DNA of 64,000 bases from positions 1,550,001 to 1,614,000 of the forward strand of contig NZ_CP032101.1 of assembly GCF_003544855.1 (NCBI RefSeq), written 5' to 3'. A model generated the notes under the pieces. That model made no database searches, was not told the DNA's origin, and was given only the letters and a program-made list of their open reading frames with translations. This DNA is from Malaciobacter marinus. Its GTDB lineage: Bacteria; Campylobacterota; Campylobacteria; Campylobacterales; Arcobacteraceae. Of the stretch, positions 4,069-60,700 are shown one piece after another (position 1 is the stretch's first letter; each line of letters starts with the position of its first letter). A program made the translations under genes and the position numbers.

Positions 4069-4151
4069 AAAAAAAACTCCTTGAATAACTAATTATATTC
4101 ATTATATTTTACTTATCTTAAATTTACCAAAAATAAGCTAATATATTTTCT

Positions 4152-4157
4152 TATAAT
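4152..4157 (+). promoter_or_regulatory. Candidate -10 box of the mutase-ligase operon
   Basis: A perfect TATAAT lies 36 bases upstream of the first mutase ATG, inside a very AT-rich divergent intergenic region (4069-4193). No clear -35 is seen, as is usual for Campylobacterota housekeeping promoters. Position only; not tested. Confidence 0.45.
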
Positions 4158-4193
4158 AATAATTACACATGAAAAAAAAGAATAGGTTTATAT

Positions 4194-4601
4194 ATGAAAG
4201 TAGTAACAGGAGTAGTAGGCAATGATATTCATGTAGTAGCAAACAGACTTATTGAAATATCACTACAAGCAAGAGGTTTTGAAGTATTTAATTTGGGAGT
4301 TAATACTTATCTTGAAGAGTTTATAGATGCAGTTATAGAAACAGATGCTAATATATTACTAATCTCATCACTAAATGGTGAAGCTGAGGGTTGGTGTAGA
4401 GAACTAAATATTCTAAAATCTAAATATAAGCAATTAAAAGATGTTGTTTTTATGCTAGGTGGAAACTTAGCAGTTGGAGAAGGAACAACACAAGAGATTG
4501 TGCCAAAGTTTAAAGATTATGGATTTGATTTAGTTTTTCACCAAGTTGATTTAAATACAGGCTTAGATGAATTAGAAAAATATATTAAGGCAAATAGATG
4601 A
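4194..4601 (+). CDS. glmS: Glutamate (methylaspartate) mutase sigma subunit, B12-binding
   Basis: 135 residues, the usual length of the small subunit. It binds adenosylcobalamin base-off and works with the epsilon subunit to interconvert L-glutamate and L-threo-3-methylaspartate. Seen: the cobalamin motif begins GNDIHVVAN, with Asp11 and the cobalt-ligand His13. The glycine that ends the DxHxxG signature is Ala16 here. The second and third motifs (ISSLNGEAEG and GGNLAVGEG) are intact. The stop overlaps the start of the next gene by 4 bases, so translation is coupled. It lies downstream of a good -10 box at 4152. It resembles stand-alone glutamate mutase subunits more than methylmalonyl-CoA mutase domains. 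Confidence 0.85.
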   Translation: MKVVTGVVGNDIHVVANRLIEISLQARGFEVFNLGVNTYLEEFIDAVIETDANILLISSLNGEAEGWCRELNILKSKYKQLKDVVFMLGGNLAVGEGTTQEIVPKFKDYGFDLVFHQVDLNTGLDELEKYIKANR

Positions 4602-5962
4602 GTTTACTGCAAGAAGAGAGAGAAATAATAGTTCAAAATGAGTATGCAGATAGCTTTGATTTTCAAGAGATTGAAGAGTTTGTAAAAAATGCTAGCAAAA
4701 ATCTATTTATTTCCCACAACTTTAAAAATAAAAATAAAATGCTAGTACAACCAAGAGGTGGTTTTCCAACTTATGAAAAACAGTTTGCATTAAATGAATT
4801 TTTTGTTAAAGCAAATGTTGATGTTTTACCTTTAACAATTGATTCAAATACAAGACTTAATGACTATGCAATGGCAAAAAAAATGTTAAGATTAAGTGAA
4901 GAAAATGAAGTTGATATGCTAAATGGCTATCCCCTTGTAAATCATGGATATAGAACTACAAGAAAAATGATTACTCATTTTGATAAACCAGTTAGTTTAA
5001 GACATGGAACACCAGATGCAAGGTTGTTAATTGAAACAGCTATTGCTTCAGGAATTTTTGAGATAGAAGGTGGTCCAATTACTTACCTTTTACCTTATTC
5101 AAAGAACTTTCCTTTAGATAAGGCTTTTTTATATTGGAAATATGTAGAAAGAGTATGTGCGAACTACTCAAAACTAAATGAACCAATAAATAGAGAATCT
5201 TTTGGTCCTTTAACAGCAACTTTAGTTCCACCATGTATTACTATTGTTATTCAACTTTTAGAGATGTTATTATCTTTAGAAGAAGGTGTTAAATCATTTT
5301 CAGTCTCTTTTTCTCAAACAGGTTCAGTAAATCAAGATATTGTAACAAGTGCTGTTTTGAAAAAAATGGCTAAATATTATGCAAAAGAAATTGATTGTGA
5401 AGATGCACAAATCAACCTTGTATATCATCAATGGATGGGAGCATTTCCATCAAATAAAGATTATTCAGAGTCACTTATAAATACATCAACTGTAATTGCA
5501 GCTTTAGTAAAAGCAGATAAAATCATCACAAAAACAAGAGATGAAGCTTTTGGTATTCCTACAAAAGAAGCAAATGCAAAAACTGTTGCAAATACACAAT
5601 ATACACTTAGAATACTACAAGGTTTACCAAATATTATAAATGAACAAGAAGAAGAGATTTTAACACAAGAAGTAAAAAGTATAATGGAAGCTGTTTTCAA
5701 TGATAGTGCTGATACTTTATGGAGAAAAGTTTTTAACTCAATCAAAAATGGAACAATAGATGTACCCTTCTCTCCTCATATTATAAATAACAACGAAGTA
5801 GTAACAGTAAGAGATAAAGATAAAAACATAAGAATTATAAAAAGAGGTAATCTTCCTATTAGTGATAAGTGTTTTGAATATGAAAAATCAAAATGCAATT
5901 TAAATAAAGATGCTACATCAATAGTAAACGATATTATACATGATATAGGGATTATGCAATGA
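4598..5962 (+). CDS. glmE: Glutamate (methylaspartate) mutase epsilon subunit
   Basis: 454 residues, close to the known catalytic subunit (about 480). It forms the TIM barrel that binds glutamate and carries out the radical carbon-skeleton rearrangement. Family motifs are clear throughout: VQPRGGFPTYEKQ, TIDSNTRLNDY, LNGYPLVNHGYRTTRK, RHGTPDARLL, NREPFGPLT-like (NRESFGPLTATLVPP), YHQWMGAFP and GIPTKEANAKT. It overlaps glmS by 4 bases and glmL by 4 bases, as expected for a stoichiometric complex. No methylaspartate ammonia-lyase or citramalate lyase genes are nearby, so the glutamate fermentation role of the clostridial enzyme is not supported here. Confidence 0.9.
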   Translation: MSLLQEEREIIVQNEYADSFDFQEIEEFVKNASKNLFISHNFKNKNKMLVQPRGGFPTYEKQFALNEFFVKANVDVLPLTIDSNTRLNDYAMAKKMLRLSEENEVDMLNGYPLVNHGYRTTRKMITHFDKPVSLRHGTPDARLLIETAIASGIFEIEGGPITYLLPYSKNFPLDKAFLYWKYVERVCANYSKLNEPINRESFGPLTATLVPPCITIVIQLLEMLLSLEEGVKSFSVSFSQTGSVNQDIVTSAVLKKMAKYYAKEIDCEDAQINLVYHQWMGAFPSNKDYSESLINTSTVIAALVKADKIITKTRDEAFGIPTKEANAKTVANTQYTLRILQGLPNIINEQEEEILTQEVKSIMEAVFNDSADTLWRKVFNSIKNGTIDVPFSPHIINNNEVVTVRDKDKNIRIIKRGNLPISDKCFEYEKSKCNLNKDATSIVNDIIHDIGIMQ

Positions 5963-7140
5963 AAAATAAGTTATTAATAGATATAGGAAGTACCTATTTT
6001 AAAGTTAGTGATAACGAAAACTTACAACAACACTTTAGAGATTTCAACAAAGATATATTTGATGATTTAAAGTATAAATGTAATGAAATTTTAGAAAAAT
6101 ATAAAAAAGAGGATATTTATATTTGTTCTTCTGCAAATGGTGGTTTAAGTACACTTATTATTGGTACAAGTAATTCATTTTCATTGAAGTTTGCTACAAA
6201 TATTGCATTTAATTCTGGTATTAATATAATAGATACAGTTTTATATCAAGATATAAAAACAACTTCAATTCCTAGTGATTTAATTGATGTAGTTATAATA
6301 GCAGGTGGTATTGATAGTGTTAGCAAGCTTTTTGATGAAGAGTTATTTAACTATTTAGAACAGATAAACTACTCTAATATTGTCTATGTAGGAAATAAAA
6401 ATGACAGTGAAGAATTATCTAAAAAAATTGAAAACTTGGTTGTTTTACCAAATATTATCAATAATAAACTTCAAGTAAATGAAGATGAATTAAAAGAGTA
6501 TTTAACAAACCTTTATCAAGCTGATATTATGGGAAAAGAGGATATCAAACACTTATATGATATTACATCAAATCAAATCTATCCAACTCCATATATTGTA
6601 AATAAAACTTTGCCAGTTATAAATAATATGTTAAAAGTTGCAGATCCTTTTATTTTAGTTGATATTGGAGGTGCGACAACAGATATTCATTATAGTACTA
6701 CTTTAGTAAATGACAATATGATAAAAAATAACGAATATGATAGATTAGTGTTTAAAAAATTAGGTGTTTTTAAATCAAAAGAGTCTTTAATATTTGCAGC
6801 AAAAAACAATGAGTTTGTTTACGAACTATTAGCCAATATGAATGTTACAGAAAATATTTTTGAAGAACAAAGTGATAAAGCTATAAAAGTATTAATGAAA
6901 TTAGCAATATTTTTAGTTTTATATAAAGTTTCAGAAGCCCATCCTCAATATGTTCATCTAAAACTAAATCTACTAAAATCAATCGTACTAACAGGTGGTA
7001 TTACAAAAGTTTTAAAAGATGAAGAGGTTGAAGATATTGTAGGATTTTTTTATAAAAAAATCTTAAACTCACAAATAAAGCCAAATATTGTATTAGATAG
7101 CAATTATGAAATTTGGACTTTAGGTATAACACAAAAATAA
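5959..7140 (+). CDS. glmL: Mutase-reactivating ATPase of the MutL/GlmL family
   Basis: 393 residues with an actin/Hsp70-type ATPase fold. Seen: phosphate-1 loop LIDIGSTYFKV at the N-terminus, phosphate-2 loop LVDIGGATTDIHYS at about 230-245, and an adenosine-type loop VLTGGITKVL near 345. MutL/GlmL proteins sit beside glutamate mutases and are thought to release damaged cobalamin from the inactivated enzyme. Here the gene overlaps glmE by 4 bases and is followed after 9 bases by the ligase. It is somewhat shorter than clostridial GlmL (about 460), so parts of the family may be trimmed. Its presence argues that the mutase is active, since an idle mutase would not need a reactivase. Confidence 0.85.
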   Translation: MKNKLLIDIGSTYFKVSDNENLQQHFRDFNKDIFDDLKYKCNEILEKYKKEDIYICSSANGGLSTLIIGTSNSFSLKFATNIAFNSGINIIDTVLYQDIKTTSIPSDLIDVVIIAGGIDSVSKLFDEELFNYLEQINYSNIVYVGNKNDSEELSKKIENLVVLPNIINNKLQVNEDELKEYLTNLYQADIMGKEDIKHLYDITSNQIYPTPYIVNKTLPVINNMLKVADPFILVDIGGATTDIHYSTTLVNDNMIKNNEYDRLVFKKLGVFKSKESLIFAAKNNEFVYELLANMNVTENIFEEQSDKAIKVLMKLAIFLVLYKVSEAHPQYVHLKLNLLKSIVLTGGITKVLKDEEVEDIVGFFYKKILNSQIKPNIVLDSNYEIWTLGITQK

Positions 7141-7149
7141 GGAGATAAA

Positions 7150-8724
7150 ATGTCTATAAATTGTATAAGAACACTTCTAGAAGATGCCAATATTTCTCAT
7201 AAAGATAAAATTGCATTAGTACATAATGATAAAAAAATAACTTACGAAGAGTTGTTTAAAAGAGTGAATCAAGTAGCATTTTATCTAAAAGAGCTTGATT
7301 TACCTAAAGATAGTAGAATTGGTATTTATTCAACAAAATCGATTGATCAAGTAATAGCAATACTTGCAATTCTTTCAACTGATTATATTCTAGTTCCATT
7401 AACTAGACTTCTTCAACCTGAACAAGTTGAATATATAATAGATGATTGTGATATAAAATGTATTATTACAGATAAAGTAAAAATTGAAAAGATTCAAGAG
7501 AGTAACTTTAATGGACAAATCATCTCTTATGAAAGGACTGAGCACAATTTAGCTTCATTTGAAGAGATTTATAAATATTATAACAAACCTTATACTTGTG
7601 ATGTAAATGGACATGATAACGCAGTTATTACTTACTCTTTTGGACTTACTGGAAAACCAAAAGGTATAGTAATTTCTCATAGAAATTTAATAGACTCAGC
7701 AAGAGTTGTATCTCAATATTTAAAATTAAAAGAAGAAGATGTAATCTCTGGAACTCTTATTTTTAATCTTGACTATGGATTAAATCAAATCTTTTGTTCT
7801 TTATATAAAAGAGCTACTCTAGCACTACATAGATTTATTTTAGCGGGTGATTTTTTCAATCACATCATAAAAGATAAAGTTACAGTATTACCTATAATGC
7901 CAATAAATATAACACAAATGTTTGATGAAGATGAATACAAACTTCCAAGTGCAGAATTACTTTCAAATATTAGAGTTATTACTTCATCAGGAGGAAATGT
8001 AACTGCTAAGATGTTAAAAGATTTAGATAAATACTTTCCTGATGCAAAGTTTTATTCAATGCATGGATTAACAGAAGCTTTTAGATCAACTTATTTAGAA
8101 CCAGCACAGATTTGGATTCGACCAGATTCAATAGGAAAAGCAATTCCAGATGTTGAGTTATATGTTATAAATGAAGAAGGATATGAGTGCAAAACAAGAG
8201 AAATAGGAGAGCTTATTCATAGAGGTGGATATATCTATAAAGGATATTGGAATGCTCCTGTTGAGACAAAAGAGAGATTTAAATCAATTGATATTTTAAA
8301 AAATGTAATCAATCTTGAAGGACAGCTTTGTGATGAGATTGTTGTTGCAAGTGGTGATTATGTATATAAAGATGAAGAGGGTTACTTATACTTTGTTTCA
8401 AGACGAGATGATATGATAAAAACAAGAGGTTTTAGAGTAAGTCCATATGAAATAGAATCAGTTGTATCAAAAAATATTCCTCAAATTGAACAATGTGCAG
8501 TTTTTTCTATTGAAAATCAAGAGATTGAAGAAGAGATTGTATTAGTTTATTCAAGTAAAAATGAAATCCCAGTAAATGAGATTTTATTTGAGTTAAAAAA
8601 TCATCTAGCATCATATATGATACCTAATAAAATTATTTATAATAGATCATTACCATTAGTTCCAAGTGATAAAAATAAGATAAATAAAGAGATATTAAAA
8701 GAAAATATTATGAATAATATTTAA
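7150..8724 (+). CDS. AMP-forming acyl/aminoacyl ligase, exosortase-associated-like family
   Basis: 524 residues, ANL superfamily. It adenylates a carboxylic acid and passes it to CoA or a carrier protein. Seen: the A3 phosphate loop (residues 161-172) reads TYSFGLTGKPKG instead of the common TSGSTGKPKG. A5 is HGLTEAFRSTYLEP, A7/A8 are ASGDYVY and KTRGFRVSPYEIES, and A10 is PSDKNKINKE with the expected Lys. LIFNLDYGLNQIF and HGLTEAFRSTY strongly recall the ligase family described next to exosortase A systems, but no exosortase or carrier protein is visible here. AGGAG lies 5 bases before the ATG. As the last gene after glmS-glmE-glmL, it may activate the mutase product (3-methylaspartate or similar). 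That is inference. Confidence 0.8.
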   Translation: MSINCIRTLLEDANISHKDKIALVHNDKKITYEELFKRVNQVAFYLKELDLPKDSRIGIYSTKSIDQVIAILAILSTDYILVPLTRLLQPEQVEYIIDDCDIKCIITDKVKIEKIQESNFNGQIISYERTEHNLASFEEIYKYYNKPYTCDVNGHDNAVITYSFGLTGKPKGIVISHRNLIDSARVVSQYLKLKEEDVISGTLIFNLDYGLNQIFCSLYKRATLALHRFILAGDFFNHIIKDKVTVLPIMPINITQMFDEDEYKLPSAELLSNIRVITSSGGNVTAKMLKDLDKYFPDAKFYSMHGLTEAFRSTYLEPAQIWIRPDSIGKAIPDVELYVINEEGYECKTREIGELIHRGGYIYKGYWNAPVETKERFKSIDILKNVINLEGQLCDEIVVASGDYVYKDEEGYLYFVSRRDDMIKTRGFRVSPYEIESVVSKNIPQIEQCAVFSIENQEIEEEIVLVYSSKNEIPVNEILFELKNHLASYMIPNKIIYNRSLPLVPSDKNKINKEILKENIMNNI

Positions 8725-8801
8725 ATGAGTATAAAATACGCTTGTTTTCTTAAATTTGGTTTAATTTTTGATATAAATCAAAGCTTTAAAAGAATTGTTT
8801 A

Positions 8802-8809
8802 TATAAAAT
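8802..8809 (+). promoter_or_regulatory. Candidate -10 box of the cytochrome c gene
   Basis: TATAAAAT lies about 30 bases before the ATG at 8840, in the 115-base gap after the ligase stop. A good spacing and an AT-rich upstream block support it. No -35 is evident. Confidence 0.4.
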
Positions 8810-8839
8810 ACTTTAATTAAACAAAAAAGGATTGTAGAA

Positions 8840-9127
8840 ATGAAAAAGATTTTGATTGCAACTTCGCTTTTCGCATGTGCATTATTTGCTTCTGATGGAG
8901 CAGCATTATATAAAAAGTGTGCAACTTGCCATGGGGCAAATGGTGAAAAAGTAGCTTTAGGTAAAAGTAAAGTAATTAAAGATATGTCTAAAGCAAATTT
9001 TATTGCAGCAATGAAAGGTTACAAAGATGGATCTTATGGTGGACCAATGAAAGGTCTAATGAAAGGTCAAGTGGCTTCTTTAAGTGATGCTGATATTGAA
9101 GCATTAGCTAATCATATCATAAAATAA
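8840..9127 (+). CDS. Periplasmic class I cytochrome c (c553-like)
   Basis: 95 residues: signal peptide of about 18 residues ending in ALFAS, one haem motif CATCH (residues 27-31), and a Met-containing stretch (GPMKGLMKGQ) that supplies the sixth iron ligand. This is the usual size of small soluble electron carriers between the bc1 complex and terminal oxidases in Campylobacterota. It is monocistronic by layout, with its own -10 box and a hairpin after the stop. A close paralogue with the same motifs is encoded at 29847-30152. Confidence 0.88.
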   Translation: MKKILIATSLFACALFASDGAALYKKCATCHGANGEKVALGKSKVIKDMSKANFIAAMKGYKDGSYGGPMKGLMKGQVASLSDADIEALANHIIK

Positions 9128-23242: not shown

Positions 23243-23740
23243 ATGGAAACGGAAATTAAATTAAGAGAACCGGTAAAAAGTGACGGAAAGAATATCTTTA
23301 ATTTAATTAATAGATGTAAACCGCTAGATGTAAATTCTGAATACTTATATTTACTACAAAGTACATACTTCAAAGATACTTGTAGTGTTGCAACATTAGA
23401 CAATGATGCTATAGGATTTATATCTGGTTATTTAGCACCAAATGAAAAAAATGTACTTTTTATTTGGCAGGTTGCAGTTGATGAAAGAGCTAGAGGTAAA
23501 TCTGTAGCTAAAAGATTACTTCAAGAGATACTTGACAGAGATTTTTGTAAAGACGTTGAGTATATTCATACAACTATATCACCAGATAACGAGTCATCAA
23601 AAAGATTTTTTGAAAAATTTGCAAAAAACTTAGATGCAAATATTGAAACTTCAGTATTATTTGATAATGAAGATTTCAGTGAAGGTCATGAAAAAGAGGT
23701 ACTATTTAAAATAGGCCCATTTAATAAAGGAAAAAAATAA
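23243..23740 (+). CDS. ectA: L-2,4-diaminobutyrate N-gamma-acetyltransferase
   Basis: 165 residues. It acetylates diaminobutyrate with acetyl-CoA, the second ectoine-specific step. A GNAT fold is seen: substrate region CKPLDVNSEYLYLL, core strand NVLFIWQVAVDERARGKSVAKRLL with the acetyl-CoA loop RARGKS, and ETTI-like IHTTISPDNESSKRFFEKF. All are close to known EctA. It is the first gene; its stop overlaps the ectB ATG by one base. Two matching palindromes lie in its leader. Confidence 0.93.
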   Translation: METEIKLREPVKSDGKNIFNLINRCKPLDVNSEYLYLLQSTYFKDTCSVATLDNDAIGFISGYLAPNEKNVLFIWQVAVDERARGKSVAKRLLQEILDRDFCKDVEYIHTTISPDNESSKRFFEKFAKNLDANIETSVLFDNEDFSEGHEKEVLFKIGPFNKGKK

Positions 23741-25020
23741 TGAGAATATTTGAAAATTTAGAGTCAGAAGTTAGAGGTTATATTAGGAGTTTCCCAACAA
23801 TATTTGAAACATCAAAGGGAGCTATTTTAACAAATGAACAAGGTGAAGATCATATTGATTTCTTTGCTGGTGCTGGAACATTAAATTATGGACATAATAA
23901 TGAATTAATTAGTAAAGCATTAATTGAATATATTCAAAAAGATGGTGTTATTCATGGACTTGACATGGCAACAAGTGCTAAAAAAGATTTTTTACAAACA
24001 TTTAACGACACAATATTAGTTCCAAGAAACTTAGATTATAAAATTCAATTCACAGGGCCTACAGGAACAAATGCAGTTGAAACTGCACTTAAACTTGCAA
24101 GATTAGTAAAAGGTAGAAGTAATGTTGTTTCTTTTACAAATGGTTTCCATGGACTTACTCAAGGTTCATCATCAGTTACAGGAAATGATGATTACAGAGA
24201 TGAAAGTTATATTAGTAGATCAAATGTATCATTTATGCCTTTTGATGGTTATTTTGGTGACATGAATACTATGGCTATTTTTAGAAAATTTCTAGAAGAT
24301 AGTAGTAGTGGACTTGATATTCCAGCAGCTGTAATAATTGAAACTATTCAAGGTGAAGGTGGAATTAATGTAGCTTCTAAAGAGTGGTTACAAGAGTTAG
24401 AATCAATTTGTAGAGAGTATGATATTTTATTAATTATTGATGATATTCAAGTTGGTAATGGTAGAACTGGTGAATTTTTCTCATTTGAATTTGCAGGAAT
24501 TAATCCAGATATTGTAACTGTTTCAAAATCAATTGGTGGTGGTTTACCAATGGCAATTGTATTACTAAAACCAGATTTAGACCAATGGAAGCCAGGTGAG
24601 CATACAGGTACATTTAGAGGAAACAACTTAGCTTTCGTTGCAGCAAAAGTTGCTATTGAGCATTATTGGCAAAATGATGATTTATCAAATGCAGTTAGAT
24701 ATAAAGAGAAACTATTAAAAGATACATTAGAAAAAATTGCTGAAAAATATAAAGATACTTTTGAAGTAGAAATTAGAGGTAGAGGATTAGCTTATGGATT
24801 TGAAATTAAAGGTGACAATTCAGTTGCTGGTGAAATTTCAAAATATGCATTTGAAGAAAAATTAATCGTTGAGACTTGTGGTAGTGAAGATCAAGTAGTA
24901 AAATTTTTACCACCATTAATTATTGATGAAGAAACATTAATAGAAGGTCTTAATCGTCTTGATACTGCAATTGGAAAACTAGTTGCAGACAAAAAAGAAA
25001 AATTAACGGAGGAATTTTAA
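23740..25020 (+). CDS. ectB: Diaminobutyrate-2-oxoglutarate transaminase
   Basis: 426 residues, full length. It is a PLP class III transaminase that converts aspartate semialdehyde and glutamate to L-2,4-diaminobutyrate. Seen: FAGAGTLNYGHNN, QFTGPTGTNAVETALKLAR, IIDDIQVGNGRTGEFFSFE, PLP Lys in VTVSKSIGGGLPMA and GTFRGNNLAF. These match EctB rather than GabT. It has a one-base overlap with ectA and a short gap to ectC, in the canonical ectABC order. Confidence 0.95.
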   Translation: MRIFENLESEVRGYIRSFPTIFETSKGAILTNEQGEDHIDFFAGAGTLNYGHNNELISKALIEYIQKDGVIHGLDMATSAKKDFLQTFNDTILVPRNLDYKIQFTGPTGTNAVETALKLARLVKGRSNVVSFTNGFHGLTQGSSSVTGNDDYRDESYISRSNVSFMPFDGYFGDMNTMAIFRKFLEDSSSGLDIPAAVIIETIQGEGGINVASKEWLQELESICREYDILLIIDDIQVGNGRTGEFFSFEFAGINPDIVTVSKSIGGGLPMAIVLLKPDLDQWKPGEHTGTFRGNNLAFVAAKVAIEHYWQNDDLSNAVRYKEKLLKDTLEKIAEKYKDTFEVEIRGRGLAYGFEIKGDNSVAGEISKYAFEEKLIVETCGSEDQVVKFLPPLIIDEETLIEGLNRLDTAIGKLVADKKEKLTEEF

Positions 25021-25023
25021 TAT

Positions 25024-25419
25024 ATGATTATTAGAGATATAAACAAAGATATTATAGGAACTGAAAAAGAAGTTCATGCTAAAGAAGGTCAGTGGACAAG
25101 TAGAAGAATGCTTTTAAAAGATGATAATATGGGATTTTCTTTTCATGAAACAATCATTAAAGCAAATACAAAAACACATATTCACTACCAAAACCATTTA
25201 GAAGCTGTTTATTGTGTAGCTGGGAATGGAAAAATTGAAGATTTAAAAACAGGTGAAACTCATGAAATTTATGATGGTGTAATGTATGCATTAAATGAGC
25301 ATGATGACCATAACTTGTATGGTGGAAGTGAAGATATGAGATTAATATGCGTATTCAACCCTCCAATTAAAGGAACTGAAAACCATGATGAGAATGGAGT
25401 TTATCCTTTAGAGGATTAA
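25024..25419 (+). CDS. ectC: L-ectoine synthase
   Basis: 131 residues, standard size of this cupin. It closes N-gamma-acetyl-diaminobutyrate to ectoine, with iron. Seen: GQWTSRRMLLKDDNMGFSFHETIIK, HYQNHLEAVYCVAGNGKIED and the metal region YALNEHDDHNLYGG with late FNPP. It is 3 bases after ectB. No ectD (hydroxylase) or ectR gene lies next to it, so the product is likely ectoine, not hydroxyectoine. Confidence 0.95.
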   Translation: MIIRDINKDIIGTEKEVHAKEGQWTSRRMLLKDDNMGFSFHETIIKANTKTHIHYQNHLEAVYCVAGNGKIEDLKTGETHEIYDGVMYALNEHDDHNLYGGSEDMRLICVFNPPIKGTENHDENGVYPLED

Positions 25420-26083: not shown

Positions 26084-27463
26084 ATGAAAGTATGCAAATT
26101 TGGTGGTAGTTCAGTTAAAAATTCCACACAAATAAAAAAAATAGTAGATATAGTAAAAAGAGATGAAAAAAGACAAGTTATTGTAGTTTCTGCACCAGGA
26201 AGAGATGATGATTTTGATGAAAAAATAACAGATCACCTTTTAAATTTAGCAACAGAGGGGAATCACTTTTTAGAACAAAAAATTGAAATTTCAAAAGATG
26301 ATAGTTTTAATGCAATAATCAAAAAATATACAAAACTTTGTGATGATTTAGGTATTGCAAAAAAGAAAATTTTAGACTCTCTTGAAAATGAATTAAATAA
26401 TTGTGATTTTAAAGATGATAAAAAAACGGCATTCTTTTTATCAAGAGGTGAACACTACAATGCAAAAATAATCTCAGATTACATGAAAAAATCAGGTCTA
26501 AATGTAAAACTAATGCTACCAGAAGAGTTTGGATTTATTTTAGATGATACATATACAGATGGAAAAGTTCAAGCAAAAACATATGACAATGTTAAAAAAC
26601 ATTTTGTTTTAAAAGATAATGAAAAAGTTGTGGTTCCAGGATTTTATGGAGTAACAGAAAAAAATGAAATTGCAGTTATGAGTAGAGGTGGTTCAGATTT
26701 AACTGGTGGTGAATTAGCCTATGCATTAGATGCAAGTATGTACGAAAATTGGACAGATACAAATGGTGTATATGAAGTTGACCCAAGAGTAATTCCTGAT
26801 GCAAAAGTAATTCCAAGATTAACATTTAAAGAGTTAAGACTACTTAGTTCAAAAGGTTTTAATGTATTTCACTTTAATGCAATGTTAAATTGTAAAAAAA
26901 GTAAAATACCAATTAGAGTAAGAAATACTAATAACCCAACAAACAAAGGAACTTTAATCTTAAGTGAAAGAGTTCCTATGGAAAAATTAGTGGGAGTTGC
27001 AAAACTTGATAATATGGCATCTATTCATATTCAAAAAGATATGCTTGGAGAAGAGATTGGATTTACTGCTGAATTATTGAAAATTTTTGGAGAATTCCAT
27101 ATAAATACTTATCATTATCCAACAGATAAGGATGATTTAGCTATATTAGTAGAGCAAGAAGATTTAAAAGGAAATATTAATAACTTAAGAAGAGAAATAG
27201 ATAAAAGATTAAAGCCAGATAATATTATTGTAACTTATTCTTTATCTGTAATCACTCTTGTTGGAATTGGATTAAAAGAAGACTCATTTACTATTGTAGA
27301 TGCAATCACTGCTTTAAAAGAGAATAATATCGCATTTGAGATGTTTGATATGAGTCCTTCTAAAATTTCATTTCACATAGGAGTATCTCAAAATATCTCT
27401 GATATTGCATTGGAGACATTATATGAAAAGTTATTAACAAAAGATAATAATTGTATTTGTTAA
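26084..27463 (+). CDS. ask_ect: Aspartate kinase, ectoine-associated type
   Basis: 459 residues. It phosphorylates aspartate, the first step to aspartate semialdehyde and ectoine. Seen: VCKFGGSSVKN at the N-terminus, VVSAPGRDD, FFLSRGEHYNAK, VMSRGGSDLTGGELAYALDA, TDTNGVYEVDPR, and two C-terminal ACT domains from about 300. The close link to ectABC is that of the specialised Ask_ect form, which avoids feedback control by lysine and threonine. A 63-base gap before the ATG, with AAGGG as RBS, could hold a second promoter. Confidence 0.9.
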   Translation: MKVCKFGGSSVKNSTQIKKIVDIVKRDEKRQVIVVSAPGRDDDFDEKITDHLLNLATEGNHFLEQKIEISKDDSFNAIIKKYTKLCDDLGIAKKKILDSLENELNNCDFKDDKKTAFFLSRGEHYNAKIISDYMKKSGLNVKLMLPEEFGFILDDTYTDGKVQAKTYDNVKKHFVLKDNEKVVVPGFYGVTEKNEIAVMSRGGSDLTGGELAYALDASMYENWTDTNGVYEVDPRVIPDAKVIPRLTFKELRLLSSKGFNVFHFNAMLNCKKSKIPIRVRNTNNPTNKGTLILSERVPMEKLVGVAKLDNMASIHIQKDMLGEEIGFTAELLKIFGEFHINTYHYPTDKDDLAILVEQEDLKGNINNLRREIDKRLKPDNIIVTYSLSVITLVGIGLKEDSFTIVDAITALKENNIAFEMFDMSPSKISFHIGVSQNISDIALETLYEKLLTKDNNCIC

Positions 27464-48721: not shown

Positions 48722-51700
48722 CTAAGGTACATCTATTAAATCTATCGTTAAAGTAGTGTCACCATCTAAATTATAAACTCCACCATCATCAATAGAGTTA
48801 GCACTTCCTGAAACAGAACTATTATGCTCTTGTGAATCTGAAGTTGTGAAGCTTAAATTTTCAGCTTGTTCTTTAGTTAATGAAAGTTTTAAATCACCAC
48901 TTGAATTTCCTAACCAATCTTCAACCATACTATTTGTAAGCTCAAACTCTTTATCTAAATCACTACTAAAGCCTGCTCCACCATTAAGTGATGAAATATC
49001 AATATTCTCAATACCATTAAAGTTTTCCAAGTTTCCAAATAATTTATCTAAATCATTAGTTACTTCAATTCCATTACCACTTAATGAAATAGTATCACTA
49101 TTAGCTCCACCTTCAATATTAAAGTTACCAATATTACTAAAATCTAAAGAGAAGTTATCATCTCCAGCTTTTCCATCAATATTACTTGGTTCATCCAAGT
49201 CTAAAACAATATTATCTGAAGCACTAGAAAGATTTAGATTTTCAAAACTACTTAGATTTGAAAAGTCTAAATTTCCATTAACTGAACTATTATCAAACTC
49301 AATAGTATCACTTCCACCATTTGCATCTATACTATTAAAGTTTGTATTAAAATCATTAAACTGTGTTGTATCATCAAATAAAATAATATCATTGCCATTT
49401 GATAGATTTAAATTCTCAAAACCACTTACATTTGTTAAAACATCAGAATCAATTGTTCCTGAACTAGTTATATTTAAACTATCATTCCCACCTTGTGCAT
49501 TTATAGTATCATTTAATGTAAGATTATTTATACCTACATTTACAGTATCATCTCCAGCACCTAAATTTGCTACATCATCACCACTACTTAAATTTAAAAT
49601 ATCATTATTACTACTTCCTTGAATAGTAACATTTGATGCACTATCATTTATAGTAACAGTTCCTAAAGTACTACTTACATTACTTAAGTCTAAACTAGAA
49701 TCATCTGCATTTACTATTAAATTTCCATTTCCTGTTACAGATGTATTGCCTAAAATAGAATCATCTAAACTCATTGTTCCAGAACTAATATTTATACTAT
49801 CAACATTAGTTAAGTTTCCACTATAAGTTGCAGTTCCCAACCAGTTTACATTTATAGTATCAACTGTTAAATCACTAAAGTCCATAGATAAAGCATCTTG
49901 TAAATTATTTACTGTTAATACTCCATTTCCACTTATTGTAGAAGCATCTATTTTACTAGCATTTACAATTAGTTGTGAATCTACTATGATTGAGTTCGCA
50001 CTATTTATAGTTGCACCATCAGAAATAGTCATTACTCCATTGCTAATTGTTAAATTTGAACTACCTAAATTTCCTGTAAATGTTCCTGTACCTGACCAAT
50101 CTACATTTGCATTATTTCCACTTATTTTTGTTAAATCCATTGAAGTAGCTAACTCTAAATTATTTATATTTAAAATTGAATTATTTGTAATTGTTGTAGC
50201 ACTATTTAAAATATTTGCATCTACCTTCATAGTTCCTGAACTAATTGTCAATTTATCTACATTAGTTAAATTACCAATATATACACCAGTTCCTGACCAA
50301 TCTACATTTAATGTATCTGGATTTATATTTGTAAAGTTAGTATTTAGCATCTCATCAAGATTTGTAACACTTAAAGTTCCAGCACCATTTACAATTTTTG
50401 CACTTATAACTGAAGCATCTGTTGTAAATGTTGTACCATTTGCTATTGTTAAAATATCTACATTTTCTAAATTGCCAGTATAAACAACATTAGCATTTGA
50501 GAAAGCATTTACATTTAAACTTCCTAAAACAGATGAAAAATCTGCATCTGGTGTTGCATGAAGATTTGTAATATTTAAAGAACCTTCTCCTATAAACTCT
50601 TTATTAGTTACTTTTGATGCATCTATATTTAATACTGCATTATTTACTACTTTTACTTTTGAATCACCTAAGTTTCCTGTAAAAGTAGTAGTTGAACTAA
50701 ACTCTATTATTTCATTAATACTATTATCTAAGTTTAATATTGAACTGAAATCTGTTGAACTATTAGAATCAACTTCAATAACTGCACTTCCTGAACCATT
50801 TATAACTTTTGAAACTGCTTGTGCCTCACTTAATATTAATGTAACAGCTGCACTTACAGCAAAAACATCAAATAGGTTATTATTTCCTAGGTTTCTTGAA
50901 CTTAAATCAACATCTTGTTTTACATCAAGAGTTACAGTTCCAGTTCCTTTTGTAATTGAAATATTTGCAAAATCATGCTCACTTGGATTTGATGTTGCTT
51001 CAACTATTAAGTTTGCATCACCTTGAAGTTCTATTTGCATATCTTTATTATCTAAATCTCTTGCACTTAAAGTTAAAGTATCCCCATCTTGTACTACAAT
51101 TTTTTCAAAATTCAATAACGTAACATTTGATAAGTCTAAATCTTTACTTAAGGTTAAAGTATCAGTTCCTTCTTGAGCATCTAAAATATCAAGATTTTGT
51201 GTTGAACTTAAAATAAAATTGTCATCACCATTTGAAGTTTTTATACTCTCAATATTTTTTAATATATCACTATTTGTACCATTTGTAACAGTAGTAGGAT
51301 TTATTCCATCAATTGTTACAGTTAGGTTTTGATTTATTGCAGTTGAATAATCAACTAAATCATTTGAGTTTCCACCATCAATTTCAAGATTATCTATAGA
51401 ATCATTTATAAATGTATCTTCTTGATTTGAACCAATATAGTTCTCAAAGTTTGCAAAAGTATCATTTCCATCTCCTGTTGAAGTACCATTTGTTATATCA
51501 ACTCTAACAGAAGAAGCAGCACCACTATAACTTAAGGTATCGTTATTAGAGTTTCCTGCTATAAGTGAATTGTTTAAAGAGTTCCCTTCAACAGTATTTG
51601 TACCATTTCCTACTTTTACATGCTCAACTTGTGAAATAACATCATTTCCATTATCTCCACTTGCTGTTTGTGTTCTTAAATTTACATTTGATGAAGTATT

Positions 51701-54700
51701 TGCACCTAAATCACTAATAGAGTAATCAATCCAATCCTCTCCTGTACCACCAATAATTTTATCATTTCCACTTCCTGAATAAATAGTATCATTTCCAGAG
51801 CCACCATCAATAGTATCATCTCCACCATTTCCAGTTAAAATATCAGCTCCATCTCTTCCTTCAAATACATTTTTATCATCATTTCCTGTAATACTATCAT
51901 TTGCTAAAGTTCCATAAAAACCTTCAATACTTGTTAAAGTATCATTTCCTGCAAGATTTATATTTGCATTTCCCAAAGCATCTAAAGTTACATTTAAAGA
52001 TGAAGAAAAAGAGCTATAATCAACAATATCTGTATTGTTCCCACCATTTATTTCATCATCTCCATCTCCAGATTTTGCAATGAAAATATCATTTCCATCG
52101 CCACCATTTAATACATCATTATCAACTCCACCATCTAATATATCAGCTCCACCATCTCCATTTAAAGTATCAACTCCTGACATACCATAAAGTTTATCAT
52201 CACTTGCATTACCACTTAAGGTATTACTATTTGCATTTCCATAAATAGTATCATTTGAATTACTTCCAATTACATTCTCAATTGAACTTAAACTATCAGT
52301 TCCCTCACCTGTTGCTTGATTTGCAGATAATCCACCTTGAGTTATATTATCTATGTTTACTTTTACTCCAGCATTTGAAGCTGTATAATCAATAGTATCA
52401 TTTCCCTCTCCACCAATTAGTCTATCATTTCCATTTCCACCAATTAGTGTATCATTATCATCTCCACCATCTAAAGTATCATCTCCATCAAGTCCATATA
52501 TTTCATCATTACCAGCATTCCCTTTTAATGTATTACCATTTGAACTTGAATCTGTACCTGTTATCTTATCATCTTTAGAAGAACCTATAACATTCTCAAT
52601 ACTTACTAAGGCTTGATTATATTGTGTTCCTGCGTTTGTAAATACTGCATTATCTTGTGTTTGCAAATCAACAGCAACACCATCTACTGTATCAATAATT
52701 GAAAAATCAAGAGTATCTTCATCTCCTAAACCACCTATAATTTGGTCATTTCCTAATGAAACATAAAAATAATCATCTCCACTTCCACCAGTGATTTTAT
52801 TTATATCAACACTACCAGCAAAAGTATCATTATATGAAGTACCTTCAATATTCTCTATATTTACTACACTCTCTTCATTAGAAAAAGAATCAATTAATCT
52901 ATTTGAATTTAATACCCCACCATCATAAGAGATTGAAGTATCACTTATATTTACAACAACTCCTTGTGTTCCTTCTTTAAATTGTAGTGTATCAACATCT
53001 AAACCATCTGCATTTGAACCACCATTTATTAAATCAACACCTTCATCACTAATTAAAGTATCACTGTCTAAGCCTCCATATAAACTATCATTTCCTGTTC
53101 CACCAATTAAAGTATCATTTCCAGTATCACCTCTTAAAATATCATCATTAGAACCACCATCTAAATAATCATTTCCAGAGCCACCATCTAAATCATCATT
53201 TCCTGATTCTGCATAGATTGTATCATTTCCATTTCCAGCATTAATATCATCATTTCCAGAGCCACCATTTAAGTAATCATTTCCATTATCTCCATAAATA
53301 GTATCATCTCCACCATTTGCATAGATTGTATCATTACCATTTTCTGCGTCAATAATATTTTTATTATCATCAGCACTCATAATGTCTTTATAATCAGTCA
53401 AATCAAAATTTTCAATATCAACTGTTCCATCACTATTTTTATATAAATAATCAGTTGCACCTCTACCATCTTTAACTTGATAAAAATCATAAGTGCCATC
53501 ACTTAAAGAATCAATTCCATTAATATTTATAGATGATGTTAAGATAGATTCATTACTATCATTTGTATCTCCATCACCATTTAAATCAATATTCTTTAAG
53601 ATTATTACTGAACCTTGATTTTCTCCTGAGTAGCCATTCTCTCCATCATAATCAAGTGTATCTATTCCATCTGCACCAATTATTGTATCATTTCCATAAT
53701 TTGCATAAATTCTATCATTACCCAAACCTGCATCATATAAGTCATTTCCATCTCTACCATCAAGAGTATCATTTCCACCATACATAATAAAAGTATTATC
53801 TATATTACTTCCTCTTACTACTTGGCTATTATTTGCACTATTATCAATTACATTTTCTATATCATAAATACGAGAATCATTAGCCCAAGCACTTTGTAAA
53901 TCAATATTACCGCTAGTATAATACTCTAAACTTAGCCAATCACCATTTACATGTGTTCCACCATTTAAAATATCTTCTCCAGCTGATAAGTAAAGTGTAT
54001 CATCTCCACCATTTGCAAAAATTGAGTTATCTTCACTATTCCCACCTAAAGTATCAGCATTATTTGAGCCATTAATATTCTCAATTTGTGTTATGTAATC
54101 TACTTGATTTGAATCATTACTATTTATAACTTTTGAATAAGTCTCTTCTAAAATTGCATCTAAAGCATTATCATTTGCTTCATCAATTGTTTCATCTAAA
54201 TTTACAATAATTCCATTATTAGATGAACTATAATCAATCCAATCTTCTTCTATATCTTCAATGGCATTTGCACCTATTAAAATATCTCCATCAAGTCCAC
54301 CTGTTAAAGTATCAACTCCTGCATCACCAAAAGCAATATCTTGAACTCCTGCACCAGTTGAGATTATGTCGTTATTATCTCCACCATAAATAGTATCAAC
54401 TCCACCTAAACCTGAAAGTTTATCTTCGCCTCCATATCCAAAAATCTTATTATTGTTATTATTTCCTGTTAAAGTATCCGCATAATTTAAAGTTCCACCA
54501 ATATTTTCAATATTTACAATAGAACTCTCTTCATTTCCATATCCATCATCAATTACTTTTGAGTTTGATAAATCAACAATAACTTTTGAAGTAGTATCAT
54601 AAAAATCGATTATATCTTCATCTTCTCCACCATCATATGAGTCAATTCCAGTTCCACCTCTTAAAGTATCATCTCCTGCTCCACCTTTTAAAGCATCATT

Positions 54701-57700
54701 TCCACCTGCACCAATGATAATATCATTACCTTCATATCCATCTAATGAGTTATTATGCTCATCACCTGTAATACTATCATCAAATTTTGAACCAAAAATA
54801 TTCTCAATATCCAAAATTGTTGTATTTCCTAATCCACCAGAAATAGTTCCATCTTGCATACTAACTGTTACACTAGAATCAATAGCTTTAAAACTTAACC
54901 AATCTCCTCCACCAGAAGTTGTACTGTTTGTTCCACCATCTATACTATCTCCACCATCTGTTGCAATGATAGTATCATCACCACTTCCAGCTTTAATATC
55001 ATTTGTTGAAGATGTTCCCATAATAGTATCATTATTATTTGAACCTATAATATTCTCAATATCAGTTACATCATCTTGTGTTCCAAATCCATCATCCATA
55101 ACTTCATGTGCAACTGTATTTTTATTGTCATCTATTTTTCCAAGATATACTTTTACACTACTATTTGCATCACTAAAATCAAGAGTATCTGTACCACTAC
55201 TTCCATCAATTACATCATTTCCTGCTTGACCATTAATAGTATCATTTCCTGCTCCACCATCAATACTATCATCTCCAATTCCACCATTTATAGTATCATT
55301 GTTACTTTCACCATAAAATGTATCATTATAATTTTCTCCTGCAAGAGCAGTTCCATTAAACCCTGAAATTACATCTGCATAGTTTGAACCTTTGATTATT
55401 TCTATATGATCATTTAAAGTATCTTCACCATCTGTAGTACTTGAAATAAGACCATAATCTCCATTACCCTCATTTAAAGTTACAGTAATTCCTGAATCTG
55501 AATTAGTATAACTTAAAGTATCTACATCACTTCCACCTTCAAAGGTATCATTTCCAGTACCTCCATAAAGTGTATCAGCTCCTGAGTCACCTTTTAAAGT
55601 ATCATTACCTTCATTACCATAAAGTGTATCATCATCACTTCCACCTGAAATTATATCTTTTCCAGTTCCACCTTTTAACTCATCATTTCCAGCTTCTCCA
55701 CTAATACTATCATCACCTTCTCTTGAGTTGATAATATCATTTCCTGCATTTCCTATTAGTGTATTACTATTGCTATCTCCATAAAGTTTATCATCACCTG
55801 TTGTTCCAATAACTCTTTCAATACTTTCTAATCTATCTTTTACAGCAACTCCAGCATTTTGATAACCATCATCTGTTGCTTCTTGTAAACCTAAATCAAC
55901 AATAACAGCATTTCCACCATTTGCTAAATCTACATTACTATAATCAACTGTATCAATACCTTCACCACCTAAAATAGTATCGCTACCTTTTGAAGAGATA
56001 AATGAGTCATCTGCTTTATATCCATCTAAAATATTTATACTATTTATATCATCATCACCTTTGATAATATCACTATTTTTTGTTCCTTTTACGTTTTCTA
56101 TACCATTTAAAGTATCACTTATAGTTGCATCTGTAACAAGCTGAACTTGGTCGTTTGCTCTTGATAAATTTACATTAATAGCATTATCATTTTTAATATA
56201 AGAGTAATCAACAGTATCATTTCCTGTATCTGTTGTTTCATCTCCACCATATATAGTATCAGAGTCTAAACCACCTAAAATAGTATCATTACCATCTTCT
56301 CCCATTAAAGTATCAGCACCACCTGCACCAATAATAGTATCGTTTGAAGCACCTGCTTTTATGATATTTGATTCACTATTTCCTGCTAAAATATCTTCTT
56401 GATTTGAACCATTTAAATCTTGTATATCATATAATCTATCAACTCCTTCTCCTGTAGAAGTTTGTGTTGCTAGATTAAGTATTGACTCCTCAAAAAAGTC
56501 TATATTTGAGTTTGTTTCAGATAGATTTACTTTTACACCAGTTGAAGAGTTACTATAATCAACTAAATCTCTACTTGAATCTTTACTTGAAATATTTTCA
56601 TTATTTCCATAAATAATATCATCACCTGTTCCACCTCTAAAAGTATCACTTCCATCTCCACCAATTAAAGTATCAGAACCAGCATTTCCATAAAGAGTAT
56701 CTTGCTCATCTCCACCTTCAAACTTATTATCACTTGAATCTCCAATAATTATATCTTTTGAATTTGTTCCAACTATATTCTCAATTCCAGAGATAAACTC
56801 TTGGTTTCCATATCCATCATCTTGAACTTTATAAGAAGATTGTGTTCCTAAAGTTTGAGAAGCAGTTAAATCAACTTTTATACCTTGTGTTCCATCAGAA
56901 AAATCAATAGTATCATCATTTCCTTCTCCACCATCAATATAATCACTTCCTTCTAAACCTTTAAAGCTATCATTTCCACCTAAGCCAATTAGTGTATTAT
57001 CTTTTTCATCTGCTATGATATTATCATTTGCTTCTGTACCTATTACATTTTCAATATTTCTTAAAGTATCTGTTTTGCTATTTGAAGTTGCTGTTCCTTC
57101 TGCACTATTTGAGCTATCATTATCTAAGTCTAAATCAACAGTTACACCAAAAGCTAAATCTGAGAAATCTGCTGTATCAATATCATCTCCACCATCTATA
57201 ACATCGGCACCTTCACCACCTCTAATAGTATCATTTCCACTTCCAGTTTTAATATCATTTGAAGCACTATCTGCATAAATAGTATCGTCTTTATCTCCAC
57301 TTATTATATTTTCAACACCATCTAAAAACTCTTTATTACCAAAGCCATCATTTTCAACTCTATAAGTGCCTTCACTTCCTTCAACTTGTGTCTTTGTCAT
57401 ATCAATAATTACATTTTCAGTACCTGCTTCAAAATTTGCTGTATCAATTCCAGCTCCACCTATTATTTTATCAGCACCTTGAAGACCAACTAAATAATCA
57501 TCTCCACTTCTTCCTTCTAAAGTATTATTATCACTATTACCTTTAATATAATCATTTTTATCAGAGCCTATAATATTTTCAATATTTGTAATAGTATCTA
57601 CTCCATATTCATTATGAACTCTTTGTGCAGATGAAACTGTTAAATCAACTTCTATACCACTGTATAAATCATTTGCTACCTCATCTCCTACATATCTATT

Positions 57701-60700
57701 ATCAGAAGTATCATCATTTATAGCAATAGTACTATAATCTAAAGTATCACTTGTTCCATTTTGTGTTGTATCATCATTATCATCACCATTTAAAATATCA
57801 TCTCCAGCCCCAGCAATTATATAGTCATTACCAGCTCCACCTTCAACAACATCTTCTCCTGCAAGTTCAGAAATAGTATCATCCCCAGCTAAACCTTTTA
57901 ATGTATTATTTAATGAATTACCAACTATTGTATCAGCATCAACAGCAAGATTAGTACCTGTAATATTTTCTATTGACTCAAAAGTATCAATACCAATACT
58001 TGCTCCAACAGCTATTGAGTTAGATATATTTGCATTTATTGATGAACTTTCATTACTATAATCAGCAGTATCACTTCCTTCACCACCTTTAAGCTTATCA
58101 TCATTTGCTCCACCAATTAGTGTATCATCTCCATAACCTCCAAATAGTGTATCTTCTCCTGCTCCACCACTTAAAGTATCATCATTTACTAAACTTGCGC
58201 TACTATTTTTATCATCTCCATAAATAATATCATTGTCATCTCCACCTTCAATATAATCAACTCCATCATCTCCATAAATAGTATCAAGTCCACTTCCACC
58301 AATTAAAGTCTCTGTTCCTGATATATTATCTCCACCATCAATTACATCATTTCCTAAACTTCCATCAATATAATCAGTACCTTGATTACCTTTTAATGTA
58401 TTATTTCCACTATCTCCTGTGATTATATCTGCTTTATTTGTTCCATAAATATTCTCTATATTTACTATTGTATGATTTGAAGTATCACTATTTACTGTAA
58501 CTGTTGATACTGTTGAATCATTTAATGTTACATTAACTCCTGTAGTCATTGATGTAGTATCTAATGAGCTATAATCTACTGTATCACTACCTCTTGTACT
58601 ATCATCTTCATTTCCACCATCAATAATATCTGCTGTAAAATCATTATCAATAAAAATATCATTTCCAGAACTTCCATAAAGTCTATCGCCAGAGCTTCCA
58701 CCTGTTATAGTATCATCACCTGCTCCACCATCTATATAATCTACTCCTGCTTTACCATCTAAAGAGTCATTTCCTGCCATTCCAAATAAAGTATTATTAT
58801 CAGCATTACCTAAAATAGTATCATTTCCTGCTGTTCCTGTAATATTTTCAATATCTTTTATCTTATCATTTGAAGAGTTTATTCCACTTACTGTTACAGT
58901 TGAGTAATCTTGCGTATCAATAGAGTCTAAATCAACTACTATTTTTGTTGCACCATTTGAACTATAATCAATAGTATCTCCTCTTGATTCAAGACCTTGA
59001 GAGTTTGTATTTGATTCTGAAGCATCAATAATATTTGTAGTATCTAATTTTGTAATAAAAGTATCATCAAAATCTGTTCCAACAACATTTTCTATTTGTG
59101 TGATTGTATCTGTTAAAATATTTCCATTAACTTCTTTAGTTGTTGTTTGTGCATCTAAGTTTGCAACAATTCCTGCTGTTAAAGCAGCATATGTATAAAG
59201 TACAGTATCAACTCCTGTTGAACCATTTAATGAGTTTACTCTATCATTTCCTCTAAAAGTATCATCTCCACTTGTTCCAATTGCATTCTCTATTGAAACA
59301 ATAGTATCACTTTTTACAATAGTGTTTGAATTATTAGAGTCATAGATATTTGCTGTTTGAGAAGTTAAATCAATATTAGCATAGTATTGAACATCAACTA
59401 TTGCACTATAATCAATAGTATCACTATCTTCTCCTCCATCTATTTTATCATTCCCATCAAAAATATCTGTTGTATATGTAGCTTTAAAAATATCATCTCC
59501 ACTTCCTCCAGTTAATGTATCATCTCCTTCTTGTCCATAAACTGTATCATTTCCTGTTTGACCATCAATACTATCATTACCTTCTCCACCATATAGTAAA
59601 TCATTATTATCTCCACCATAAATAGTGTCTTCACCCTCTTTTGCATATACAGTATCATCTGCACCCATACCTGAAATAATATTTTTCTCACTATTTCCAG
59701 TAATAGTATCTTTTCCTAGATTTGAACCAACAATATTTTCTATTCCATAAAGTTTATCTGTACCTTGGTCTTGAGAAGTTGCTGTTCCTTCTTCATTATC
59801 TTCTGCTAAATTTACAGTCATTCCTGTAATTGCTTGAGAGTAATCAACTGTATCAATACCACTATCATTAGATTCATCGCCTCCATAAACTATATCTTGT
59901 TTATTATCAGCTTGTTCAAAAGTAATAGTATCATTACCCAATCCTGCATAAATAGTATCTGCACCTAAACCACCATTTATTTCATCATCACCACTTCCAG
60001 CATAAACAGTATCATCGCCATTTTCGGCATTTATTTCATCTGCTCCTTCTTCAGCATATAAAATATCTTTACCATCTCCACCAAGAAGTTTGTCATCACC
60101 ATCTCCAGCATATATAGTATCATCACCCGCTTTTCCATCTAAAGTATCATTTCCTGAGTTTGTACTATTTGCAATATCAGCTCCACCATAAAGTTTATCA
60201 CTTCCAGCTTGTCCACTTATAGTATCATCACCACCCATACCTTGGATTTTATTTAGATTAAAATCACCAGTAATATCATCATTGTATTCAGTACCAATTA
60301 CATACTCAATTTGTGTTAAAGTATGAGTATTTCCAGCAATATCAACAGTTGCAGTTGTTACTCCATCAAGATTTACAGTAATACCTTGATCAACGCCTTG
60401 ATAATTTACAGTATCGTAATTATCTCCACCAATAATCTCATCACCAGTAGCATCAGCAGTATTATCAATAATAAACATATCATCGCCACTTCCACCAATA
60501 AGTTTATCAGCTCCACCAGCACCTTTTAAAGTATCAGAACCACCATTTCCTTCTAAAGTATTAGTCTCATCATTACCTGAAATTGTATCATTATTATTAG
60601 TACCATTAATATTTTCTATACCATATACTTTATCAGTATAATTAGGTGTAGTAAAATCCATATCAGAAGAGGAAGAGACTTTTATTTGTGAAGAGCCATC

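Follow-up and report, generated by a model that had tools for sequence, protein, structure and literature searches.

Adenosylcobalamin (AdoCbl)-dependent glutamate mutase is known from fermentation, from the haloarchaeal acetate cycle and from macrolactam starter units, and its occurrence in Malaciobacter marinus (Arcobacteraceae) in one operon with a homologue of AMP-forming ligases raises the question of what becomes of its product there. The operon, glmS–glmE–glmL–ligase homologue, lies in a stretch of 64,000 nucleotides from contig NZ_CP032101.1 of a closed 2.9-Mb genome (hereafter the window). As a module it is conserved across Campylobacterota and Gammaproteobacteria, and it very likely encodes a distinct and functional subfamily of glutamate mutase that, judging by its sequences, converts glutamate to 3-methylaspartate. 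We tentatively read the whole as a route from glutamate, through an aminotransferase and an RraA-family protein, to 2-oxobutyrate, with a non-canonical ligase as dedicated partner; this is the account that we favour, although we hold it to be somewhat short of probable.

A conserved glutamate mutase operon

The locus is laid out as follows, in coordinates of the window.

4069..4193, no strand: intergenic gap before glmS, with no RraA-family gene, although a divergent one stands at this place in most relatives
4194..4601, + strand: glmS, 135 amino acids (aa), B12-binding sigma subunit of glutamate mutase; NF002612 161.5 bits (cut-off 110)
4598..5962, + strand: glmE, 454 aa, catalytic epsilon subunit; PF06368 (Met_asp_mut_E) 399.7 bits; PDB 6h9e/1ccw E 8.6e-81
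5959..7140, + strand: glmL, 393 aa, shortened MutL-type reactivase; PF13941 (MutL) 114.6 bits
7150..8724, + strand: ligase homologue, 524 aa, ANL fold; PF00501 (AMP-binding) 210.7 bits; TIGR03098 444 bits (cut-off 592)

Positions of the open reading frames, overlaps (4 bases between glmS and glmE and again between glmE and glmL, then a gap of 9 before the ligase gene) and family matches agree on a single tight operon, as proposed in an earlier note on this DNA. No Rfam riboswitch was matched in the window or in eight loci, where one tRNA was the only hit, and a promoter scan scored no better than shuffled sequences.

A scan of GTDB genomes returned 217 stretches encoding GlmE relatives; the best 80 of these (approximately 80–96% identity) belong to Arcobacteraceae, Sulfurimonas, Colwelliaceae, Oceanospirillaceae, Cellvibrionales and Granulosicoccaceae, together with a few betaproteobacterial drafts and one Rhodothermales draft. 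In this neighbourhood search the same gene order recurs, the ligase gene adjoining glmSEL in all 71 testable loci, typically with 4-base overlaps; because of this recurrence the operon is not a chance arrangement. We found nothing useful in the literature on the operon in Arcobacter or Colwellia. A small c-type cytochrome gene (window 8840-9127) lies directly downstream of the ligase gene, and is found in many Arcobacteraceae loci and not in those of Gammaproteobacteria.

The module is patchily distributed, being present in 58 of 397 genomes of the phylum sample. The closest GlmE outside the M. marinus genome is that of Malaciobacter halophilus (96% identical), and the Malaciobacter protein shares 84% identity with the GlmE of an alteromonad and 75% with the one from a member of its own order. 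The GlmE tree, in which one Arcobacteraceae genus groups with another family and the deep forks are poorly resolved, suggests lateral transfer of the module without proving it. In a genome of the same genus (G207; locus L129, G207:C1:1598000-1614000, 7869-8880), glmE, glmL and the ligase gene are exactly missing and glmS and an RraA-family gene remain, which reads as a natural loss of the module. Other plasmid contexts of glmE (Roseibium, Methylobacter, Prevotella and Streptomyces) are distant, with less than 60% identity; that of Roseibium aggregatum (L171, 639-8069) places glmE beside genes for an amino acid adenylation-domain protein, an aromatic amino acid lyase and an amino acid racemase.

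Seven residues of GlmE that lie in the active site of the Clostridium cochlearium structure (R66, R100, R149, E171, Y177, Y181 and K326) are invariant in 121 sequences. Because these catalytic residues are all kept, a working mutase is very likely, and the conversion of glutamate to 3-methylaspartate proposed in the earlier note is consistent with the predicted enzyme. With C. cochlearium glutamate mutase (GlmS/GlmE; PDB 1CCW, 6H9E) the M. marinus module shares fold, subunits, R66, R100, R149, E171, K326 and the cobalamin histidine. It differs in that GlmE falls narrowly below the cut-off of the curated equivalog TIGR01503 (379.8 versus 390.1 bits) while matching PF06368, that GlmS carries DxHxxA in place of DxHxxG, that GlmL is short and that methylaspartase is absent. 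The GlmS substitution (G19 to A) is shared by all 117 relatives, which also keep D14, H16 and the GG motif. GlmL scores far below its own curated equivalog, NF040745 (94.7 bits against a cut-off of 475), although its MutL Pfam domain is recognized.

GlmS, GlmE and GlmL are members of protein families known from the methylaspartate pathway, and the operon could on that ground be a remnant or a form of glutamate fermentation. We regard this as very improbable indeed: neither the M. marinus genome nor other Arcobacteraceae tested have a methylaspartase, the genes are intact and under purifying selection, and their partners are different ones. The earlier note had seen no methylaspartase partner and had counted such a gene, if present in the genome and co-regulated, as evidence against its reading; PF07476 has no match anywhere in the closed genome, which contradicts fermentation by this pathway.

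The ligase homologue and the fate of 3-methylaspartate

The earlier note placed the ligase close to a family associated with exosortases and proposed that it activates 3-methylaspartate or a relative as an AMP, coenzyme A (CoA) or carrier-bound form. TIGR03098, the exosortase-A associated ligases, is indeed the closest family, with 444 bits, and the shared motifs FDYGL(N/S)Q (in similar form) and GLTEAFRSTYL bear out the kinship; full membership did not hold, the curated cut-off of 592 not being reached. We compared the protein with three true TIGR03098 ligases (L149-L151), each encoded by a gene of its own in a genome that bears the glm type as well, and with three paralogues from the M. marinus genome. 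The TIGR03098 members retain TSGSTGxPKG and NGK, whereas in the glm-type ligase the ATP-binding (A3) loop TSG[ST]TGxPKG is replaced by YSFGLTGxPKG, with F164 invariant. In enzymes of this fold the A10 lysine serves adenylation and the A8 lysine thiolation (PMC11253843). The A10 lysine is present in all six comparison proteins; at the corresponding position 510 of the glm type, lysine occurs in 38 of 82 sequences and Q, R, L, E, S or I in 43, and the family has no other invariant lysine near the site. The A8 lysine, K424, is by contrast invariant, as are D403, R418 and E309.

The substrate pocket was mapped by motif, using the motif positions of GrsA, and its residues D208, Y209, S279 and R312-S313 are invariant (38/38). 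They would correspond to D230, F231, S299 and K330-R331 of VinN (VinN residues from PMC11253843), an adenylation enzyme whose structures 3wv4 and 3wv5 tie with others as best match of the ligase model (Z 44.2, root-mean-square deviation 2.2 over 378-383 residues). Whole-length template-modelling scores of the model are 0.81-0.83 for thiolation-state structures versus 0.66-0.69, a difference that carries no weight given a mean pLDDT (predicted local distance difference test) of 49.5 for the TIGR03098 control model (n = 3). The ratio of nonsynonymous to synonymous substitution rates (0.05-0.15) is like that of glmE and indicates strong purifying selection. Judging from these sequences, the ligase is functional and probably binds 3-methylaspartate or glutamate; its capacity for adenylation is in doubt, and conservation of the adenylation machinery appears to have been lost in the family.

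A refined form of the activation proposal is that the ligase, in the manner of VinN, adenylates the beta-carboxylate of 3-methylaspartate, which would then be transferred to CoA or the fatty-acid acyl carrier protein (ACP) for a biosynthesis. The precedent is vicenistatin, for which glutamate mutase VinH/VinI works with the adenylation enzyme VinN and with VinL and VinO (PMC11284099); the pairing of a mutase with an adenylation enzyme, which the earlier note did not know from described pathways, is thus not new in itself, although the set of partners in this operon is unusual. The starter module of Streptomyces halstedii and the M. marinus operon have in common the mutase and an ANL enzyme with an Asp/aromatic/Ser/basic pocket for 3-methylaspartate (PMC11284099, PMC11253843); the latter system has a reactivase and an RraA partner, lacks a dedicated carrier and a VinO-type decarboxylase, has no polyketide synthase in the operon and shows degenerate A3 and A10 motifs. 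The invariant VinN-like pocket (PMC11253843), the conserved A8 lysine with D403, R418 and E309, the structural match to VinN and the presence of K510 in M. marinus and in the 38 sequences noted above all speak for activation. Against it stand the altered ATP loop and the replacement of the A10 lysine in 43 of 82 sequences, and with them the genome itself. A search for carrier proteins, which the earlier note had advised looking for elsewhere, recovered one PP-binding gene, presumably that of the fatty-acid ACP, and no dedicated carrier. Matches to TIGR03099, the VinO-type decarboxylase family, were LysA- or SpeA-like proteins only (identities inferred from lengths and distribution) that are shared with mutase-negative genomes. 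A vicenistatin-like carrier route was rejected on these two grounds. Activation also leaves the RraA linkage described below unexplained, and the activation proposed in the earlier note is only partly supported; we consider the refined version possible but rather doubtful.

The cofactor offers a different view of the ligase. No cobalamin adenosyltransferase of the PF01923 (PduO/EutT-type) or PF02572 (CobA-type) families was found in the M. marinus genome or in 16 of the 17 mutase-positive Campylobacterota tested, so these organisms must import AdoCbl or use another means. The ligase could be an accessory factor that, with GlmL, binds the adenosine part of AdoCbl or a breakdown product and helps to load or reactivate the cofactor. 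It is a constant operon partner of an AdoCbl enzyme, it retains contacts to AMP or adenosine while its phosphate loop and A10 lysine are altered, and the missing adenosyltransferases would fit. All 16 gammaproteobacterial carriers tested, however, have CobA and yet retain the ligase, which weakens the case for it as a substitute adenosyltransferase. The pocket, moreover, has the make-up of an amino acid site, the reaction would be unlike that of any known adenosyltransferase and AdoCbl may simply be imported. We judge an accessory role improbable.

RraA-family and aminotransferase partners

Clustering of the neighbouring genes across loci revealed two partners that the earlier note had overlooked and that may point to a keto-acid route. 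An RraA-family gene is adjacent and divergent to glmS in 53 of 73 testable loci and lies within about 10 kb in 61 of them. It is present in 17/17 mutase-positive versus 1/12 mutase-negative Campylobacterota tested (Fisher p 3.5e-7, relatedness not corrected for), and the sole exception is G207, which also retains glmS. Of 63 testable loci, 28, gammaproteobacterial ones, have a gene for an aspartate/aromatic aminotransferase (PRK09257, ~570 bits) close by. The RraA sequences carry a [DE]-x20-R-D motif (84/84), the one that serves HMG/CHA aldolase for metal binding and catalysis and that is absent from Escherichia coli RraA. A class II pyruvate aldolase of the RraA fold also decarboxylates oxaloacetate, and most motif-bearing homologues of this fold are regarded as probable class II pyruvate aldolases (PMC5065237).

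In the proposed route, GlmS and GlmE, dependent on AdoCbl and maintained by the reactivase GlmL, would convert L-glutamate to (2S,3S)-3-methylaspartate, a step strongly supported by sequence. Genomic linkage suggests that an aspartate-type aminotransferase would then transaminate this product to 3-methyloxaloacetate; linkage and active-site motifs suggest that the RraA-family protein, with its metal-dependent pyruvate-aldolase/oxaloacetate-decarboxylase fold, would split the latter into 2-oxobutyrate and CO2. The 2-oxobutyrate might feed isoleucine or propionyl-CoA. The ligase homologue may bind the mutase product, as a sensor, chaperone or channel, or may perform the second half-reaction only.

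A glutamate mutase route to 2-ketobutyrate and isoleucine was reportedly described by Abramsky in 1962, and we know of no gene set that has been assigned to it. The first step and the end product would be those proposed here, the later steps being supplied in our scheme by the RraA-family protein and the aminotransferase. Such a route is listed in PMC7476758, which cites Abramsky.

Several observations weigh against this route. M. marinus has no RraA gene adjacent to glmS and would have to rely on its nearest copy, about 0.5 Mb away, which shares 52% identity with a glm-linked RraA. Non-enzymatic regulators of RNase E, moreover, also belong to the RraA family. M. marinus has a threonine deaminase homologue, and hence does not need another source of 2-oxobutyrate. 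The M. marinus ligase itself carries K508, K510 and K513, and one draft genome (G356; L143, G356:C32) has RraA and glmSEL with no ligase found anywhere in the draft, a pattern that could reflect either a gap in the assembly or a natural form without the ligase. The scheme also leaves the ligase without an evident task, although its linkage is as tight as that of the mutase. Because of the threonine deaminase homologue the route would be supplementary; an obligate replacement of isoleucine synthesis was rejected, that homologue being present in M. marinus and in nearly all relatives. The distant RraA copy (L130, G000:C1:1052000-1066000, 4668-7294) lies near genes for biotin carboxylase and carbonic anhydrase (named from sequence), which suggests a role in oxaloacetate metabolism.

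It might also be that RraA is an unrelated neighbour with a regulatory role, and that the locus does no more than make 3-methylaspartate, to be exported, stored or turned into another product. The gene is divergently transcribed and outside the operon, it is absent from the M. marinus locus and its family is named for RNase E regulation. The co-occurrence in Campylobacterota, an adjacency conserved across two phyla and the aldolase motif in every RraA sequence argue the other way, and we find this explanation unlikely. The comparative data agree somewhat better with a keto-acid route in which a non-canonical ligase takes part than with the activation step of the earlier note. A more specific version, in which the ligase has lost normal adenylation, has kept its 3-methylaspartate pocket and has taken on a new role as product sensor, channel or half-reaction enzyme in a widespread and so far gene-less route from glutamate to 2-oxobutyrate (mutase, aminotransferase and RraA decarboxylase), is conceivable, and we would not call it likely.

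Elsewhere in the window are ectoine biosynthesis genes (23243-25419; GNAT acetyltransferase, class III aminotransferase and ectoine synthase), followed by an apparent aspartokinase gene (26084-27463; read from sequence), and a single open reading frame of 4,940 aa on the minus strand (48722-63544) that is likely to encode a giant surface protein.

Significance

If the proposed route is correct, B12-dependent glutamate mutase would have another role, in relatives of Arcobacter and in Sulfurimonas, Colwellia and other marine bacteria, and the old claim that isoleucine can be made from glutamate would gain candidate genes. An RraA homologue would have an enzymatic job, and the module would include an ANL protein that is strongly conserved although its adenylation lysine is not.

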